From Henriciella pelagia (GTDB lineage: Bacteria; Pseudomonadota; Alphaproteobacteria; Caulobacterales; Hyphomonadaceae), in NCBI RefSeq assembly GCF_002088945.1, contig NZ_NCSU01000007.1, positions 682,001 through 746,000 on the forward strand: DNA of 64,000 bases, in the 5' to 3' direction. The notes below the pieces were generated by a model that worked only from the letters and a program-made list of their open reading frames with translations, did no database searches and had not been told where the DNA came from. The translations under genes were made by a program, and so were the position numbers. Positions 55,211 through 62,862 of the stretch are shown piece by piece. Each line of letters begins with the position of its first letter. Position 1 is the stretch's first letter.

Positions 55211-56674
55211 ATGTCGAGAACCGACACGCTGCCCACCACTTATAGTCCTTTTCGCGACCACGATGGAGAAAGCATCGTGCTCGGATGGCAGACGCCGTCC
55301 GATCAGGCCTCAGGCATGGGGTTTTCCCAGCCGCCGGGCGATGCAGGTAGCCCGCCTGCCGAACCCGTGGAGATGGGCGGAGACGGCCACATCCTCACCA
55401 TTGCACCCACCGGGTCCGGCAAAGGGGTGAGCTGCATCATTCCGACGCTGCTGACCTATACCGGCCCCGTCATTGTCATCGACCCGAAGGGCGAAAATGC
55501 TGCCGTCACGGCGGAGCGACGCCGCCAGATGGGGCAGCAGGTGCACGTCATCGATCCATTCGGCATCAGCGGCGAGGAGCCCGCCCGGTTCAATCCGCTG
55601 GAGCTGGTCAACCCCCGCTATGCCGATTGTACCGATGACGCCGCCATGATTGCGAGCATGATCACGCCGGTTCTCAAGAACGATCCGTACTGGTCAAACC
55701 GGGCCAAGCAGCTCATCACCGGTCTCATCCTGCATGTCTGTCACGACATGCCCGCATCGGATCGCAACCTGCTCAAGGTGCGCGAGATCCTGCACAGGGC
55801 TTCGCTTGAAGAAGAGTCCGTGATTGAGGCGCTGAGGACATCTCGCCACCATGAGGTGCGTATCACGCATGCTGGCATCAGTGGTCCGGCCGAGCGGACG
55901 CGCCAGTCCATCGTGTCCATCGCGGCAGACGCGCTCGATGTCTTCCGCGGCGATTCCATGATGCACAGCCTTTACGCTTCGTCATTCGACATTAATGGCG
56001 TGACGCGCGGCGACCCGATGACGATCTATCTCGTCCTGCCGCCGCACATGATGGAATCGCACGGACCGGTGCTGCGCATGTGGGTGGGCGCCCTGTTCTC
56101 GCTGATGTGCCGGCGGCGCAAGCGCCCGGACATGCACACGCTCTTCCTCATCGACGAAGCCGCGCAGCTTGGCACGTTCGAACCCCTGCGTTCAGCGTTG
56201 ACGCTTCTGCGCGGCTACGGGGTACGCACCTGGAGCTTCTGGCAGGACCTGCCACAGCTCAAGCGGCTCTACCCTGACTGGGAGACCCTGCTCACCAATT
56301 GCCGCGCCGTGCAGATCTTCGGGCGACTTGGTGCCCGCAGTGCCAAGGGGGCGGCCGAAGCGCTCGGCGTCGACAATCCTTCGATCTTCCGCGACCTGAA
56401 CCGGGACCAGATGGTTGTGGCCATGAATGGTGATGATCCGAAGCTCTGCCACCGCCCAAACTATCTGAATGATCGCATCCTGGCGAAACTGGCCCAGCAA
56501 AACCCGTTCTTCAGTGATGACATGCCGGGTGAGTGCCGACGGCCTGCGCATATGGAATGCTCAGCGTTTGACGATGAACGCCAGTCCACCCTGTTTCCGC
56601 TGGAGGTATATCCCCCCTGGCGGCTCAAGCAGGACGAACGCAAGAAGATCAGGCCTCGCCGTCGGGCGAGCTGA
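55211..56674 (+). CDS. Orphan VirD4/TraG-family ATPase, no membrane anchor
   Basis: A 487-aa FtsK/HerA-type ATPase of the type IV coupling protein family. Walker A is IAPTGSGKG (about 64-72), followed by VIVIDPKGENAAVTAERRRQ (TraG signature); Walker B is TLFLIDEAAQLG, with the all-alpha-domain-like FNPLELVNPRY and DPYWSNRAKQLITGLILH. VirD4 normally starts with two membrane helices; none is present here, and the protein begins with a soluble ~60-residue segment. No relaxase, VirB or mating-pair genes are nearby. GGGAGG precedes the ATG. Confidence 0.87.
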   Translation: MSRTDTLPTTYSPFRDHDGESIVLGWQTPSDQASGMGFSQPPGDAGSPPAEPVEMGGDGHILTIAPTGSGKGVSCIIPTLLTYTGPVIVIDPKGENAAVTAERRRQMGQQVHVIDPFGISGEEPARFNPLELVNPRYADCTDDAAMIASMITPVLKNDPYWSNRAKQLITGLILHVCHDMPASDRNLLKVREILHRASLEEESVIEALRTSRHHEVRITHAGISGPAERTRQSIVSIAADALDVFRGDSMMHSLYASSFDINGVTRGDPMTIYLVLPPHMMESHGPVLRMWVGALFSLMCRRRKRPDMHTLFLIDEAAQLGTFEPLRSALTLLRGYGVRTWSFWQDLPQLKRLYPDWETLLTNCRAVQIFGRLGARSAKGAAEALGVDNPSIFRDLNRDQMVVAMNGDDPKLCHRPNYLNDRILAKLAQQNPFFSDDMPGECRRPAHMECSAFDDERQSTLFPLEVYPPWRLKQDERKKIRPRRRAS

Positions 56675-56683
56675 GCGCTTCGC

Positions 56684-57550
56684 CTACTGGATGGCGACAG
56701 CGTTGCCGAGAGAGATTTCCGGCAGCATGCGCGCGGCAAAGAGGCAGCTCTCAATCTTGCCAGGCTTCGGCACATCGGGATCTGCCAGATAGGCTGAGAG
56801 AGCTGCTTTCGCCGTTGCTGCCACGTCTTCGTCCGAAACCGGCGTTGCACTGCGGCCAAGCAGCTTGCGGCTGGTACAGCGATAGAGCCGGATCATGTGA
56901 AGGTCGCGGGCGCTGTCGCCGGCGCGCAGCCGGTGCAGCGTGTTGAGCTGGCGATCCGACGACACGGTGAGGGCCGCCGGCCACCCCGCGCCGCCGGGCT
57001 TTGCGATCCAGAGGGTGGACTGGCGATTGTCCTTGTTCGCCATGTGGAAATTGATCGAGATCAGCTGGCCATTGTCCAGCTGGTCGATCTCGATGTCGCC
57101 AATGCCCTGACGGGACAGGCGGACCAGCCAGAATTCGATGGCGGCATCTCTCAGGTGCCAGGCCTGTTGCTTGTCGCCAAGGGCGAGCCGGACGGCCGCG
57201 TGCATGAACAGGGAGTCCACGTCTGTGATATGACCTGCCAGCTCAAAGTGGGTTGCTGCTGCCTCGATATTCTTACCCCAGCCAGCCGCAAGACCGGCGA
57301 TGCGGTGGGCTTCTGAAACCTCCGGCCGGTTCGGGCAGGCAGCGATAAACGCTTCAGACACACGCTGCACATAAGCGGGCGTGGCTTCTTCTTCAGGGCT
57401 TTCAAGCCGCTGCTGCCAGCTGAAAACGTCGTTCAGGCTGCAGTCTGCGACCGGTTCGGTTTGCGCCAGCGCGGTGCGTTGCATGCCGGTATAGGTACAG
57501 ATCACCGACACGATAAGCGCGCTCAGATAGCGGAGAAGCCGTTTTCGCAT
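56684..57550 (-). CDS. Exported protein of unknown function
   Basis: 288 aa with a signal peptide (about 1-29, ending ALAQ). The mature part is mostly helical in its first half (TPAYVQRVSEAFIAACPNRP, HRIAGLAAGWGKNIEAAATH, a TPR-like pattern) and beta-rich later (GDIEIDQLDNGQLISINFHM). Cys pairs suggest a periplasmic protein. No family recognised. It is convergent with the VirD4-like gene, nine bases apart. Confidence 0.7.
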   Translation of the reverse strand: MRKRLLRYLSALIVSVICTYTGMQRTALAQTEPVADCSLNDVFSWQQRLESPEEEATPAYVQRVSEAFIAACPNRPEVSEAHRIAGLAAGWGKNIEAAATHFELAGHITDVDSLFMHAAVRLALGDKQQAWHLRDAAIEFWLVRLSRQGIGDIEIDQLDNGQLISINFHMANKDNRQSTLWIAKPGGAGWPAALTVSSDRQLNTLHRLRAGDSARDLHMIRLYRCTSRKLLGRSATPVSDEDVAATAKAALSAYLADPDVPKPGKIESCLFAARMLPEISLGNAVAIQ

Positions 57551-57621: not shown

Positions 57622-58479
57622 TCACCCGTAGAGGCGCTGGAAAGTCCAGATGAGACCCGTCACGCCAATCACAAGCGATGCCGGTATGACAATCAGGGGC
57701 CGGTACAGATCCATGCGGGAAGCCTGCTTGAGCGTACCCCGGAAATAGAGCGAAGCGGCAAAGGCAAGCCCGACAACAGCGAGCTGCCCGATCTCGACAC
57801 CGATATTGAAGCCGATCAGTGCGCTCCAGAACTGGCCCTCCGGCAGGCCGAGCTCTCCGAAGAAGCCGGCAAACCCCATGCCGTGGATGAGGCCGAAGGC
57901 AAAGACAATGAATGGCCTCAGCCGCGTCATCCGCCCGAACAATATGTTTTCGAACGCGGCGAAGGCGATCGTCGCTGCGATGAGCGGCTCCACCACGGAA
58001 GCCTGAGGGGTAATCACGCCGGCAGCGGCCAGCGCAAGCGTGATGGTATGCGCGACGGTGAAGCAGGAAATCTGGATGACCAGCGGATTCATGCGCGGCG
58101 ATGCGAGGAAGATCGCGAGCACGAACAGGATGTGATCATAGCCGCCCGGCAGGATGTGACGCACGCCGATGGAGATATAGGTCGTGAAGGTGGAGAGGAC
58201 GGATCGGTCCATGTCGACGGACGGCGTGCCGGTAAACTGTGTCGGTTGCGCAATCTCGGCGGTGCTGCCGGCGCCTGGTGCACGGTCAAGGTCCGACAGT
58301 GCGCGGCAGAGTTCCGGGTCGAGCCCGCCGCCCGGTGTGCAGAATTCATCTTCAGGATGCGCTGCTGCGAAGGGCTGAAGCAGGCTGAGCGCGATCCATC
58401 CAAGAACCAGGATCAATCCGATACGGCGCCAGGTGGCAAAGCCGGAATGCGCCTGTTCAGCTGCGGCGTATCTCATCAT
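57622..58479 (-). CDS. HupE/UreJ-like membrane protein
   Basis: 285 aa: an N-terminal membrane helix or signal, a short periplasmic loop with cysteines (HPEDEFCTPGGGLDPELC), then a C-terminal HupE/UreJ_2 domain with six helices (YISIGVRHILPGGYDHILFV, CFTVAHTITLALAAAGVI, FGLIHGMGFAGFFGELGL). The His/Asp motifs match metal-permease-like HupE proteins. I start at ATG 58479, with AGGG about six bases upstream; it overlaps the ZIP gene by 23 bases, implying coupling. In this setting a zinc or nickel role is likely. Confidence 0.8.
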   Translation of the reverse strand: MMRYAAAEQAHSGFATWRRIGLILVLGWIALSLLQPFAAAHPEDEFCTPGGGLDPELCRALSDLDRAPGAGSTAEIAQPTQFTGTPSVDMDRSVLSTFTTYISIGVRHILPGGYDHILFVLAIFLASPRMNPLVIQISCFTVAHTITLALAAAGVITPQASVVEPLIAATIAFAAFENILFGRMTRLRPFIVFAFGLIHGMGFAGFFGELGLPEGQFWSALIGFNIGVEIGQLAVVGLAFAASLYFRGTLKQASRMDLYRPLIVIPASLVIGVTGLIWTFQRLYG

Positions 58480-59284
58480 GCGAACCCTCACTCGCATGGC
58501 CAGGTGCAGGCACAACAAGCCCGCCATCATGGCCGTCTGAATGACCATCATCGTGGATCGGGGCGAGAACAAGCAGGATCGCGGCCCCGGCACCAGCGGC
58601 AATGGCTGTCAGTCCGCGAACTGGCTGCATTTCCTTCAGCGGGGCCATGAGCGGACCGGTCGCCACAAAGAGCAGCAGGCCTGCTGACACCGCAAAGAGC
58701 GAGCCGATCGTGTCATGATCCAGCCCGTACATGAACGGGCCCGAGACAATGACACCGAGCGGCGTCGTCGCTGCGGCTGCCAGAAAGGCCAGCCAAAACG
58801 CATGGACGTTGCGGATACCGTAGCGGCGCAGGATTGCAAAAGCGATAACACCTTCGGGGAATTCGTGCAGAGTAAGGCCGATGGCGGCATAGACGCCCGA
58901 CGCAAAGCTCGCGGCGAAGGTGACCGAATAGATCACGCCATCAATGAAGGAGTGCACGGCAATGGCGAGGATCGGTGTCAGCGCCTCGTGGCGGTGCGGT
59001 ATCCCCTCCTCGCTGGGGAAAACCGCCTTCACGCCATTGTGCAGCAAAAGACCGCTGAAAAAGCCGACGGCGAGCCAGACTGGTGCGTTCATCGAGAAGT
59101 GAAATGCTTCGGGTATGATGTGCAGGAAGGCCAGCGTCGTCAGCATGCCAGCTGCGGCGAGACCGAAGAGCGAGGCGTTGCGCTGGCTCCAGATTGCACG
59201 CTGGGCAACCAGTATCAGTCCGACAGTCGTGCAGAAGCAGGCAATCAGCCCGAAGAATAGCGGCGCCTGAAGCGATGACCACAT
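58457..59284 (-). CDS. ZIP family metal transporter
   Basis: A 275-aa importer of divalent metals, probably Zn2+. It has eight helices, with the metal-site motifs AVHSFIDGVIYSVTF (helix 4, HS-x3-G) and GLTLHEFPEGVIAFAIL (helix 5, HEFPEG). The C-terminal tail is rich in His and Asp (IHDDGHSDGHDGG), as often seen in metal chaperone-like ends. It is divergently arranged with the DUF2796-ABC operon at 59442, and a Zur-like site lies between. Confidence 0.9.
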   Translation of the reverse strand: MWSSLQAPLFFGLIACFCTTVGLILVAQRAIWSQRNASLFGLAAAGMLTTLAFLHIIPEAFHFSMNAPVWLAVGFFSGLLLHNGVKAVFPSEEGIPHRHEALTPILAIAVHSFIDGVIYSVTFAASFASGVYAAIGLTLHEFPEGVIAFAILRRYGIRNVHAFWLAFLAAAATTPLGVIVSGPFMYGLDHDTIGSLFAVSAGLLLFVATGPLMAPLKEMQPVRGLTAIAAGAGAAILLVLAPIHDDGHSDGHDGGLVVPAPGHASEGSHDEIRRS

Positions 59285-59365
59285 AGCCTGAATAATGCCT
59301 TGTCAGTGTTGCGCCGCAGGATCTGCCGCTGATAATTCGGCTGGACCGAATTGTTTGAACGGGTA

Positions 59366-59380
59366 CGTTATAGTATCTCA
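59366..59380. promoter_or_regulatory. Candidate Zur operator between the divergent metal-uptake operons
   Basis: CGTTATAGTATCTCA matches about 11 of 15 positions of TGTTATAATATAACA, the alphaproteobacterial Zur palindrome as I recall it. It is centred in the 157-base region between the ZIP gene and the DUF2796 gene, so one site could control both. Confidence 0.45.
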
Positions 59381-59441
59381 TTTTCAGAATGCGACCTGTT
59401 TTTGCAAGTTGCCTCACCCTCCGCTGCGAAAGGCCTGAAGC

Positions 59442-60080
59442 ATGAAACCCTCCGTGACGATTGCAGGTGCGAGCCTGGCTGGTCTCCTCATCCTCTCTGC
59501 ATGTGGGAAAACCGAGCCTGCTGAGAAGGACATGGTTGCGCCAGTCACCTCGCAGACCCCAGACGATTCAGGTGAGGCTGCTGACGCCGGCATGGACCGC
59601 GCCCTGCCGCCCGAAGGCAGTGCGCACGACCCGGCTGAATCCGAGCGCCTGGAAGCCCATGTCCATGGCTCGGCAACCCTGGCCGCAGGCGTCGACGGGG
59701 ACGCGTTGACGATTGCTTTCGAAGCCCCGCTCATGTCGATGGTCGGCTTCGAACATGAGCCTGAAACGCCAGAGCAGACCGAAGCGCTGACTGCCCTGAA
59801 AGATGCCTTCACTATTCCGGGGGGTATGGTGGAGATCAGGGGCGCTGCCGGCTGTCTTCCCCTGATGACCACGTCAGGCACGCACTTTGCCAATGGTCAT
59901 GGGGCGCTTGAGGTGGAACATGTCTACACCTGTGAAAAGCCGGACGACATCAGCCGCATCGACTTTAAAAGGATGAGCGATTATCCCGGACTGGAAACGA
60001 TTGATGCTGTGTTTGTCTCCGACACTGACCAGATTGTCGGGGAGCTGACGCCGTCGAACCCGTCACTGGAGCTTCGCTAG
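59442..60080 (+). CDS. DUF2796 lipoprotein, ZrgA-like zinc-binding component
   Basis: 212 aa with a lipobox (LLILSAC|GKT, Cys about 21) and a short linker. The mature domain matches DUF2796: LEAHVHGSATLAAGVDGDAL, the core HVHG motif, then FEAPLMSMVGFEHEPETPEQ and EVEHVYTCEKPDDISRIDF. In Vibrio, ZrgA of this family is the periplasmic zinc-binding part of an unusual importer. The His-rich linker of ZrgA is short here (only a few His). AAAGG precedes the ATG. First gene of a four-gene operon. Confidence 0.85.
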   Translation: MKPSVTIAGASLAGLLILSACGKTEPAEKDMVAPVTSQTPDDSGEAADAGMDRALPPEGSAHDPAESERLEAHVHGSATLAAGVDGDALTIAFEAPLMSMVGFEHEPETPEQTEALTALKDAFTIPGGMVEIRGAAGCLPLMTTSGTHFANGHGALEVEHVYTCEKPDDISRIDFKRMSDYPGLETIDAVFVSDTDQIVGELTPSNPSLELR

Positions 60081-60084
60081 CCTG

Positions 60085-60792
60085 TTGACCGATCAGCCTG
60101 CCATTGAAATCCGGGATCTGCGCTTCGCCTGGGATGGCGGGTCTACGCCCCTGCTTGACATCCCGGCCTTCGACATGGGCGCCGATGAGCGGCTCTTCCT
60201 TCGCGGACCAAGCGGGTCTGGCAAGTCGACCCTGCTCGGACTGATCGCCGGCGTGCTGGAGCCTCAGTCCGGCAGCATACGTGTCCTCGGCGAGGACATG
60301 TCATCTCTCAGTGGTGCAAAGCGGGACCGTATGCGCGCCGATCATCTCGGTGTGATCTTCCAGATGTTCAATCTCGTGCCATACCTGTCCGTTGTCCAGA
60401 ACGTGACATTGCCATGCCGGTTCTCACAGGCGCGCCGCGCCGCCATCGCGGCAGCAGGCGGACCGGTCGAAGAAGCGCGCAGGCTGCTCGCCCGCCTCGG
60501 CCTCACCGACGAAAAACTGCTCGCCCGCCCTGTAACGGAATTGTCCGTCGGCCAGCAGCAGCGTGTTGCGGTGGCCCGGGCGCTGATTGGCGGGCCGAAC
60601 CTGCTCATCGCCGATGAGCCGACATCTGCACTCGATGCCGATGCGCGCGACCGTTTCATCGAACTGCTGAACGAGGAAGCCTCCCAGTCGGGCGCAGCGC
60701 TCCTCTTCGTCAGCCATGATGGCGCTCTGGCTTCGCATTTTGACCGCAGTGTCGACCTTTCCGAACTGAACAGGGCGGGGGTCGCGGCATGA
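60085..60792 (+). CDS. ABC transporter ATP-binding protein (MacB/LolD type)
   Basis: 235 aa: Walker A FLRGPSGSGKSTLLGLIAG, Q-loop GVIFQMFNLVPYLSVVQNV, signature TELSVGQQQRVAVARALIGG and Walker B LLIADEPTSALDADARDRF. The start appears to be TTG at 60085, five bases after the DUF2796 stop, with no good Shine-Dalgarno, so translation probably depends on the upstream gene. It overlaps the permease start by four bases. Confidence 0.93.
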   Translation: MTDQPAIEIRDLRFAWDGGSTPLLDIPAFDMGADERLFLRGPSGSGKSTLLGLIAGVLEPQSGSIRVLGEDMSSLSGAKRDRMRADHLGVIFQMFNLVPYLSVVQNVTLPCRFSQARRAAIAAAGGPVEEARRLLARLGLTDEKLLARPVTELSVGQQQRVAVARALIGGPNLLIADEPTSALDADARDRFIELLNEEASQSGAALLFVSHDGALASHFDRSVDLSELNRAGVAA

Positions 60793-62060
60793 GCGGTGGA
60801 TCCATTCTCGGCCTGGCCTGGCGCAGCCTGATGAACCGCAAGGGATCTGCCTTGCTGACCCTGCTGGCCGTCGCCCTTTCGGTTGCGCTCTTTCTTGGCG
60901 TGGACAAGGCCCGCAACGGTGCCCGAGCCGGTTTCGACAATACGATATCCGGCACAGATCTTATCGTCGGCGCCCCCACGGGCCAGATCAATCTATTGCT
61001 CTATTCGGTCTTCAGGCTCGGCAATGCGACAGCCGAAATCAGCTGGCCCACATATCAGGACATTGCAGGCCGCAGCGATGTGGCCTGGACCATCCCGGTA
61101 TCGCTCGGTGACAGCCATCGCGGATTTCGGGTCATGGGAACGAATGCGGCTTATTTTGAGCACTACAAATATGGCAGCGGAACAGCGCTGGAGATCGCCG
61201 AAGGCCGCAGGTTCGACGACATCTATGAAGCCGTGCTTGGAGCCAGTGTTGCGCGTGAGCTTGGCTATGGGCTTGGCAGTGAGATTGTCCTCACCCATGG
61301 TCTCGGGGCGGGCGGCCTCACCGATCATGACGACAAGCCCTTCATCGTCACGGGGGTCCTTGCGCCAACGGGAACACCGGTTGACCAGACGATTCACATT
61401 CCGCTGGAAGGCATGACGGCCATCCATGTCGGCTGGGAAACCGGCACAAAAAGCCCGCTCGCCGACACGATTACGGAAGACATGATCCGCAGCTTCGATC
61501 TTACGCCAAAGACGATAACCGCCGTCTTCCTTGGTCTCGAACGGCGAGGCACGATCCTTACCACCCAGCGCGCTCTCAACACCAGGGCCGGTGAGCCCCT
61601 GCTCGCAATTATTCCCGGCGTTGCGCTCGGCGAACTCTGGCAGGTGACCAGCGTCGTTGAACGGGCGCTGATCGCCGTCTCTATCTTCGTCATTGCGGTG
61701 GGGCTGGTGTCTGTCCTGATCAGCATCCTGACCAGCCTCAATGAGCGCAGGCGCGAAATGTCCATCCTTCGAGCCACGGGCGCGCGGCCCGGCCACATCT
61801 TTTTCCTGATGGTGGCGGAAGCGGGCCTGCTGGGATTTGTCGGTGCGCTGCTCGGCGTCCTCATTGTGCAGGCCGGACTTTTTGTGCTCGGCCCCATGCT
61901 CGCATCGAGTTATGGGGTGAAATTACAGGGGCTCGGGCTCGCCGCGATCGACCTATGGACGATCCTTGCCGTGACAGCAGCGGCCATATTCATCGGATTT
62001 ATACCCGCCATCATGGCGCTTCGCCGGTCGCTCGCCGATGGACTCACTGTGAAGCTTTAG
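60789..62060 (+). CDS. ABC transporter permease (FtsX/MacB-like)
   Basis: 423 aa. One N-terminal helix (KGSALLTLLAVALSVALFLG), a large periplasmic domain (about 45-285), then three C-terminal helices (IAVSIFVIAVGLVSVLISIL, LLGFVGALLGVLIVQAGLFV, LWTILAVTAAAIFIGFIPAI). This is the type VII / mechanotransmission topology of MacB, FtsX and LolCE rather than a classical importer. The association with a DUF2796 protein is what ties it to zinc handling. Confidence 0.9.
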   Translation: MSGGSILGLAWRSLMNRKGSALLTLLAVALSVALFLGVDKARNGARAGFDNTISGTDLIVGAPTGQINLLLYSVFRLGNATAEISWPTYQDIAGRSDVAWTIPVSLGDSHRGFRVMGTNAAYFEHYKYGSGTALEIAEGRRFDDIYEAVLGASVARELGYGLGSEIVLTHGLGAGGLTDHDDKPFIVTGVLAPTGTPVDQTIHIPLEGMTAIHVGWETGTKSPLADTITEDMIRSFDLTPKTITAVFLGLERRGTILTTQRALNTRAGEPLLAIIPGVALGELWQVTSVVERALIAVSIFVIAVGLVSVLISILTSLNERRREMSILRATGARPGHIFFLMVAEAGLLGFVGALLGVLIVQAGLFVLGPMLASSYGVKLQGLGLAAIDLWTILAVTAAAIFIGFIPAIMALRRSLADGLTVKL

Positions 62061-62106
62061 AAAGATTGGTGAAAAAGGCATGGATGCACACCAGCAGAGG
62101 CCCTAG

Positions 62107-62862
62107 ATGTACGGCATGAAAGCATTGTTCCTCAGCGCCAGCGCGCTTAGCCTCCTCGCATTTTCCGCTTGCGGCGGTCCGCAGGAGGACGTTCCCGACC
62201 CAGCCATCCCCGAGCAGGCGGGCAGTGCGGGCCTCGATGCCGCCAAGGACGCCATACTCGCCAAGGCGGAAAGCGGAGACGGCCCACAGATCGGCGACAG
62301 AATCCCTGATCCGGCGCCTGCAGCTGAACCTTCAGGGAGCGAAAGCTCGATAGCGCAGGCTGGCGCGGAAGAGAAAGCGAAGGCTGACGCTGTTGCTGCA
62401 CGCGGTGTTACTGAAATCGGCTGGGAAGAGCTGATGCCGGAAGGCGAAGAAGAGCGGCTCGCGGAAATGTACCAGGCTCAGATGGCCATGCTGTACTCAG
62501 GGTCTGGCGTTGCCGAAGGGTCGGCCGCCGACCAGGCCATCCAGATCGGGACCTTCAACACCGTCAAGGAACTCGACGGGATGAAAGTCCGGCTGCCAGG
62601 CTACACCGTGCCGTTCGAATACGGCAAGGACGCCAATATCCGTGAATTCCTGCTGGTGCCGTATTATGGTGCCTGCCTTCACGCGCCGCCGCCACCGCCG
62701 AACCAGACCGTCTTTGTGAAGGCTGAAAAAGAGATCAAGCTCAAGGATCTCTCCCAGGCGGTGTGGATCGAGGGCACGCTGCGAACCCAGACGCAGACGT
62801 CAGATCTGGCCGATGCGGCCTACACGATCGAGATGACGAACTGGGAAGTCTACGAATACTAG
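62107..62862 (+). CDS. DUF3299-domain lipoprotein
   Basis: 251 aa with a lipobox (LLAFSAC|GGP). A low-complexity Ala/Glu/Ser linker (about 25-100) precedes a C-terminal DUF3299 domain: VKELDGMKVRLPGYTVPFEY and FLLVPYYGACLHAPPPPPNQ, with one Cys and one His in a conserved motif (YYGACLHAPPPPPNQ). DUF3299 proteins accompany ZrgA-type operons. AGAGG precedes ATG 62107. Last gene of the operon. Confidence 0.85.
   Translation: MYGMKALFLSASALSLLAFSACGGPQEDVPDPAIPEQAGSAGLDAAKDAILAKAESGDGPQIGDRIPDPAPAAEPSGSESSIAQAGAEEKAKADAVAARGVTEIGWEELMPEGEEERLAEMYQAQMAMLYSGSGVAEGSAADQAIQIGTFNTVKELDGMKVRLPGYTVPFEYGKDANIREFLLVPYYGACLHAPPPPPNQTVFVKAEKEIKLKDLSQAVWIEGTLRTQTQTSDLADAAYTIEMTNWEVYEY

Follow-up and report, generated by a model that had tools for sequence, protein, structure and literature searches.

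A Zrg zinc-starvation module paired with a ZIP carrier in most Hyphomonadaceae, and a possible periplasmic role for its MacB-like ABC system

What does an ABC system of the MacB/LolC type do in zinc uptake? Work in Vibrio treats such a system as an importer, work in Pseudomonas treats it as an exporter, and the two contradict each other. The question is raised again by a locus of Henriciella pelagia (Alphaproteobacteria, Hyphomonadaceae) at positions 57622-62862 of the window, that is, the whole stretch of 64,000 nucleotides analysed here (contig NZ_NCSU01000007.1, positions 682,001 to 746,000). The locus is a Zrg zinc-starvation module of a known kind, as in the Vibrio zrg genes and Pseudomonas PA4063-4066, together with a lineage-specific addition, a ZIP-family carrier. 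New here is that this coupling of ZIP and Zrg extends through the Hyphomonadaceae, a family nearly without ZnuB, the ABC-3 permease. The best single reading in our view, to which we give a probability of about 0.42, is that ZIP is the inner-membrane importer and that ZrgBC would use ATP to deliver zinc to it on the periplasmic side. The features of the locus and its flank are the following.

57622-58602, minus strand: HupE/UreJ_2-family inner-membrane metal carrier (PF13795, E=5.2e-46), an optional member of the cluster
58457-59284, minus strand: ZIP-family carrier (PF02535, E=4.1e-17) with the motifs HSFIDG (111) and HEFPEG (140)
59285-59441: divergent promoter gap of exactly 157 bp between ZIP and zrgA
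59367-59379, inside the gap: Zur-like candidate operator GTTATAGTATCTC, with two mismatches to GTTATANNATAAC
59442-60080, plus strand: zrgA, DUF2796/ZrgA zinc-binding protein (PF10986, E=1.1e-30), probable lipoprotein (LLILSAC)
60085-60792, plus strand: zrgC, ABC ATPase of the LolD/MacB/FtsE group (PF00005, E=2e-31) with Walker A, signature and SHD motifs
60789-62060, plus strand: zrgB, MacB/LolC-type permease (MacB_PCD and FtsX domains; PF12704, E=4e-15; PF02687, E=7e-14) with four transmembrane (TM) segments
62107-62862, plus strand: zrgE, DUF3299, homologue of PA4066 (PF11736, E=1.3e-43)
56684-57550, minus strand: conserved protein without Pfam family, exported-looking by eye, which accompanies ZIP (and HupE)

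The six genes, their order, the 157-base gap and the families are as a sequence-only reading of this DNA had claimed, judged from the list of open reading frames (ORFs) and a Pfam scan of eight window proteins (the six cluster genes and two neighbours). That reading had also pointed to the Zrg system described in Vibrio, and the families do match the list given there, in which zrgA (DUF2796), the zrgC ATPase, the zrgB permease and zrgE (DUF3299) are zinc-starvation genes (PMC9817125). The reading frames of zrgC and zrgB share 4 bp. The listed HupE ORF runs 146 nt into ZIP, and from its translation the true start is more likely at 58479 (MMRYAAAEQ...). A chance arrangement is excluded, because the same arrangement recurs across the Hyphomonadaceae. 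Taken alone the parts are an ordinary Zrg module, and ZIP is the stable added part.

How firmly is ZIP tied to Zrg? ZrgB is present in 88 of the 105 family genomes, and in 79 of these a divergent ZIP stands beside it: 77 by Pfam within 6 kb, a count that omits the ZIPs of genus g10, G001 and G086 and further second hits (no ZrgB on the contig, or second copies), plus G032 and G034 by a custom profile. Contig edges account for three of the other nine (G059, G068, G073), G015 has HupE with no ZIP found, and G077 and G091 carry MerC at the zrg genes. PF10986 (ZrgA) is matched in 83 of the 105 genomes, with a divergent ZIP within 3 kb in 76 of the 83; this count omits second gene fragments and below-cut-off second ZIPs and drops the weak ZIP of G068, hence it starts from 99 genomes with ZIP and not from the 100 of 105 found by Pfam. 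The pairing also persists where ZrgA is not detected. In G002, G012, G032, G033 and G034 zrgC-zrgB-zrgE stands divergent from ZIP with no PF10986 match in the genome, and in G003, also with no genomic PF10986 match, a contig edge leaves ZIP and zrgC visible. The ZrgA-undetected genomes with ZIP-zrgCBE span three lineages, and one uses a different ZIP group. In a ZIP tree of 33 rows three g3 ZIPs cluster with zrg-unlinked ZIPs and are split from the main ZIPs (100/99). Because the g3 ZIPs group away from the main ones, the pairing of ZIP with zrgCB probably came about on two or more occasions; L233, one of the three, has a long branch, and a fast-changed copy of the main ZIP is a less probable alternative. 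A ZIP-zrgACBE locus from another family (L203) is also on a long branch. A link between ZIP and Zrg was found in none of the titles and abstract openings among the matches listed for Zrg, its domain families and related zinc carriers.

ZnuB is scarce in the family. PF00950 is matched in 5 of the 105 family genomes, the best hit having E=1.7e-11 (G104) and the others 2.5e-6 or weaker, and it has no match in the window's own genome. The same profile is matched in 13 of 14 control genomes. Among 49 named ZrgB genomes (50 of 80 loci were picked, many Vibrio being left out, and 49 were searched) ZnuB occurs in 32 and ZIP over the cut-off in 23, and ZIP is over the cut-off in 13 of the 17 ZnuB-negative versus 10 of the 32 ZnuB-positive genomes (Fisher p=0.006, kinship ignored). 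A lineage that is nearly without ZnuB and keeps ZIP and ZrgBC, even with ZrgA gone, offers a simple genetic background where the importer, exporter and hand-off models lead to different predictions.

What kind of machine is ZrgBC? Hydropathy predicts four strong TM segments in ZrgB, the first separated from the second by a large domain. Its closest PDB sequences and folds are MacB, LolCDE, HrtBA, YtrF, YbbP, FtsX and BceAB, none of them titled importer. Hydropathy, PDB sequence matches and fold matches of the structure model agree with the mechanotransmission topology that had been proposed from the letters, and ZrgB is predicted to have the fold and topology of the mechanotransmission ABC proteins (MacB/LolC/FtsX), a class also named "type VII". 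Mechanotransmission ABC systems work in the periplasm and are not known to transfer substrates across the inner membrane. Four periplasmic histidines of ZrgB, H110, H170, H180 and H213, are identical in 117/117 sequences with ZrgA nearby and in 5/5 of the group without ZrgA (124 of 131 ORFs were aligned, after a length filter). Being kept with and without ZrgA, they do not follow its presence. In a wider set of 54 rows (L169 left out, L241 entered twice) H170, H180 and H213 are invariant and H110 is kept in at least 90%. The cut-offs of the NCBIfam models shown (ZrgA, LolD, LolCE, ZupT) are reached by none of the proteins, all scoring well below; the ATPase has 151 versus 308 bits for the LolD equivalog and the permease 21.5 versus 362 bits for LolCE.

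The other proteins fit a zinc system. ZrgA scores 107 bits against a PF10986 cut-off of 27.4 (83 bits for the NCBIfam equivalog NF047873, below the cut-off of 185) and aligns with V. cholerae ZrgA (8ezw, E=7e-11) and PA4063 (7ahw, E=5e-8). Its H73, H75 and E104 align gap-free with HVHG and GFEH of 8ezw, by count His35, His37 and Glu66, which are among the site-1 zinc ligands of the V. cholerae protein (PMC9820375); these ligands are kept. H153 is a candidate counterpart of the fourth ligand, His184. A simple pattern finds the ZrgA lipobox (LLILSAC). ZrgE reaches 149 bits against a cut-off of 22 for PF11736 and matches 4hsp (PA4066) with E=1.7e-30; it has an N-terminal hydrophobic segment and, by eye, a near-lipobox FSAC, with no match to the lipobox pattern. 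ZIP scores 62.8 bits against 35.1 and holds the two metal motifs of such carriers, as HSFIDG and HEFPEG; it has no match among PDB sequences at E<=0.1. HupE (156.6 bits against 24.5) has no exact match to HX5DH, presumably the carrier motif of HupE/UreJ; HX6DH, one residue longer, is present by eye. Of 58 fetched Hyphomonadaceae loci, 23 encode HupE within 5 kb of ZrgB, which makes it an optional cluster member. These assignments do not bear out the proposal that the locus provides a complete outer-to-inner route: Pfam finds no outer-membrane protein among the six genes, ZIP and HupE are both inner-membrane families, and HupE is missing from most of the loci. The protein at 56684-57550 matches no Pfam family at E<=0.01; in 35 of the 58 family loci it is encoded no more than 5 kb from ZrgB, and C225 and C269 occur in 45/45 aligned rows. 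In L186 a homologue adjoins ZIP and there are no zrg genes. ZrgD (DUF2607) is present in the Vibrio locus L112 and was not found among the eight window proteins scanned; this does not disqualify the locus from Zrg membership, because PA4063-PA4066 are described without ZrgD (PMC8561739).

Is the shared gap regulated by zinc? A motif GTTA-N5-TAAC is said to be conserved in the Zur sites of many proteobacteria (PMC4176598), and from it the search motif GTTATANNATAAC was taken. Across 22 aligned gaps the box found in the window is conserved as a block in 18 rows, two of which hold variants, with diverged surroundings; the other 4 rows end short of the block, and a separate scan gives a two-mismatch box in them. 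A box with at most two mismatches occurs in 44 of 54 ZIP-zrg gap regions versus 10 of 810 control windows drawn from those loci; related sequences are counted apart, so the p-value of this contrast calls for caution. The own genome has two FUR-family genes, the second of which fits a Zur-like profile. Zur may control the shared gap. A scan for sigma-70 promoters found 1 where 1.4 were expected. A GTTATANNATAAC box free of mismatches occurs just once in the genome, at L033:1501-1513 (C14:472532), a short way upstream of a methyltransferase gene. The zinc link suggested beforehand is supported by the conserved Zur-like box and by the Zur-like, ZnuA, ZnuB, CobW and MerC neighbours at part of the loci elsewhere.

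These elsewhere loci come from two samples. An even draw of 385 genomes of the class gave 38 with ZrgB at E<=1e-40, including the own genome and G035; loci were not retrieved for the weak hits in G193, G214, G220, G284, G468 and G521 or for a second hit in G278. In 33 loci from 30 class genomes outside the family, the neighbours of ZrgB at up to 5 kb are ZrgC in 32, ZrgE in 30, ZrgA in 22, a Zur-like gene in 11, and ZnuB, ZnuA, MerC and CobW in 4 each. Among 80 named ZrgB loci ZrgA is near in 72, ZrgE in 73, a TonB receptor in 7, a Zur-like gene in 4 and MerC in 2. The arrangements vary. In L158 and L175 the zrg genes run together with znuA and a Zur-like gene, L158 having an ATPase and znuB as well and L175 a TonB receptor. 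In L118, L139, L145 and L147 a ZrgCB-like pair has neither ZrgA nor DUF3299 within 5 kb; upstream of it L118 and L145 encode a DUF547 protein, and downstream, by eye, a LysR-like gene. Two titles look doubtful: the metagenome-assembled genome (MAG) contig L117 bears the title Klebsiella pneumoniae, which looks wrong, since the surroundings of its zrg genes, TonB receptor included, are like those in the Nevskiaceae contig L120; the contig of L106/L240, titled Candidatus Sulfopaludibacter, has the gene order of contig C13 of G073 and a ZrgB 68% identical to that of the window, and is probably from a mislabelled bin.

The reading that we prefer would run as follows. Zinc shortage would lift Zur-type repression at the shared gap, so that both arms are made. 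ZIP would move zinc over the inner membrane, while ZrgA, tethered in the periplasm, would bind it. ZrgBC would form no channel; cytoplasmic ATP hydrolysis would instead move its periplasmic domain, as in MacB and LolCDE, and its histidines might strip zinc from ZrgA or from other periplasmic binders and pass it to ZIP. ZrgE may assist, and HupE may be an optional second carrier. Hand-off to ZIP is favoured because mechanotransmission systems work in the periplasm and an importing carrier is fixed alongside. The gene content, the conserved pairing, the conserved box and the predicted fold are seen directly; the role in zinc starvation, the Zur control and the choice of ZIP as partner we infer from comparison, and the ATP-driven hand-off itself is conjectural. 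That Zrg would nowhere be an importer, being rather an ATP-driven periplasmic zinc delivery that loads separate inner-membrane carriers, in Hyphomonadaceae ZIP and elsewhere perhaps MerC, HupE or ZnuB, is a more doubtful extension.

Several observations weigh against hand-off to ZIP. The lack of ZnuB is not special to the Hyphomonadaceae, because Caulobacter, the exception among the controls and their sole alphaproteobacterium, is also without it. ZIP does not need Zrg: it occurs without Zrg in G020 and G001, and G020 keeps ZIP with the homologue of the 56684-57550 protein while no zrg gene was found there. Conversely, G086, G093 and G100 have ZrgB without an adjacent ZIP, and G015 has zrgABCE and HupE, with MerC elsewhere and no ZIP or ZnuB found. 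Two MAGs (G121, G129) show no ZnuB, ZIP or MerC, the G129 locus also being without ZrgA and DUF3299, and G133 shows no ZnuB or MerC and a ZIP below the cut-off only; such carrier gaps are what Zrg acting alone would allow. A clean swap of MerC for ZIP was considered and rejected, since ZIP-bearing sister genomes carry MerC too. Outside the Hyphomonadaceae ZIP is near ZrgB in 1 of the 33 class loci; with MerC and ZnuB counted as well, at least one of the three carriers is near in 9 loci. The 9 of the 80 named loci that have ZIP are titled Henriciella or Hyphomonas, bar L102 (Alphaproteobacteria bacterium). The ZrgB model is of moderate quality (pLDDT 75; TM-scores 0.23-0.59 for the listed matches), and H213 sits within one of the two ZrgB search patterns, so that for loci found in this way its invariance is partly built in.

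MerC shows some further arrangements. G015, G021 and G024, in which no ZIP was seen, all carry it, and there it adjoins a large ORF whose start is TonB-receptor-like by eye. An apparent MerC-ZrgA fusion in L045 was rejected, as the apparent signal peptide of ZrgA lies inside the frame and MerC is truncated, at 81-82 of 108 positions; L045 likely represents adjacent merC and zrgA genes with a frameshift. In L040-L043 and L048 (genus g4, Hyphomonas) a second cluster has DUF1826, CobW and MerC on one strand and a Zur-like gene, zrgA and zrgE on the other, without zrgBC. In the flank of our locus, the ORF at 55211-56674 resembles by eye a VirD4/TraG-type coupling ATPase (PTGSGKG).

The explanation that ranks next is a canonical importer, with ZrgA as the solute-binding protein and ZrgBC itself carrying zinc inward; ZIP would then be no more than a second importer of low affinity under the same regulation. 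This is the published Vibrio model (PMC9820375; PMC9817125), and zrgA is required there for normal growth of a znuA-deleted strain in zinc-poor medium (PMC9820375). The closeness of ZrgA to ZrgB, within 5 kb in 72 of the 80 named loci and in 50 of the 58 loci from the family, also speaks for it. However, the deleted gene named is znuA, so ZnuBC may have persisted in the test strain. The listed fold matches of ZrgB are all of the MacB/LolCDE/FtsX/BceAB type, zrgCB stays beside ZIP where ZrgA is undetected, and second zrgA-zrgE copies exist without BC. We regard an importer as rather unlikely. Less probable still is mere neighbourhood, that is, ZIP and zrg sharing a promoter as each responds to zinc, without a mechanism in common. 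ZIP standing alone in G020 and G001, and zrg elsewhere with other carriers or none, are what it would predict; two ZIP groups paired with zrg and the retention of the pairing where ZrgA is undetected argue against it. As this reading overlaps with the importer model, the odds that we attach to the readings do not sum to one.

An exporter is improbable here. ZrgBC would then be a MacB-type pump for a metallophore-metal complex, as proposed for PA4064-PA4065 and pyochelin-cobalt (PMC11481552; PMC13083405). PA4065 mutants accumulate pyochelin and cobalt inside the cell, the AlphaFold model is MacB-like and the genes are Zur-regulated; the same work reports no relevant change in zinc and other routes of pyochelin export in the PA4065 mutant (PMC11481552). 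No metallophore enzyme, MacA or outer-membrane factor is among the eight window proteins scanned with Pfam, genes further out being unscanned, and the near-constant pairing with a ZIP carrier and with the zinc-binding ZrgA fits such a pump poorly. A Lol-like sorter that moves zinc-loaded ZrgA and ZrgE lipoproteins between the membranes would suit the lipobox of ZrgA, the near-lipobox of ZrgE, LolD as second NCBIfam match of the ATPase (among the best 25 of 190) and the LolC/E structures matched by the permease, but it is the least probable of all, as the lipobox pattern fits only 36 of the 81 ZrgA ORFs from the family and the class and, in the named loci L110-L179, only 3 of 65, the LolD and LolCE scores lie far under their cut-offs and the invariant periplasmic histidines of ZrgB are left unexplained.

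Among known systems, Vibrio zrgABCDE (8ezw) is one of the closest. Both have ZrgA, the ATPase, a four-TM MacB-like permease, DUF3299 and the HxH and Glu ligands of site 1, and Zur-type control may be a further likeness; here the divergent ZIP and HupE are added, ZrgA is probably a lipoprotein, no DUF2607 ZrgD is among the scanned genes and ZnuB was not found in the genome. With P. aeruginosa PA4063-PA4066 it shares a homologous four-gene set (7ahw, 4hsp), while in eight Pseudomonas-titled loci (P. aeruginosa not among them) no ZIP lies within 5 kb of ZrgB. The partner of PA4063 was left open in the literature, as its own operon or another zinc system (PMC8561739). In Francisella novicida the Zur-controlled, ZIP-type ZupT is the primary zinc importer (PMC5786701), a precedent for the role proposed here for ZIP; the abstract names no Zrg module. 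MacB has been described as a mechanotransmission system (PMC11481552), and the MacB-like topology of ZrgB has been remarked on (PMC9820375). From MacB, LolCDE and FtsEX, whose equivalog cut-offs it does not reach, ZrgB differs by its invariant set of periplasmic histidines. If Zrg loads separate carriers and is no importer itself, a mechanotransmission ABC system would power the import of an ion through a partner carrier, and the zinc-import phenotype seen in Vibrio would be reconciled with the MacB-like structure.

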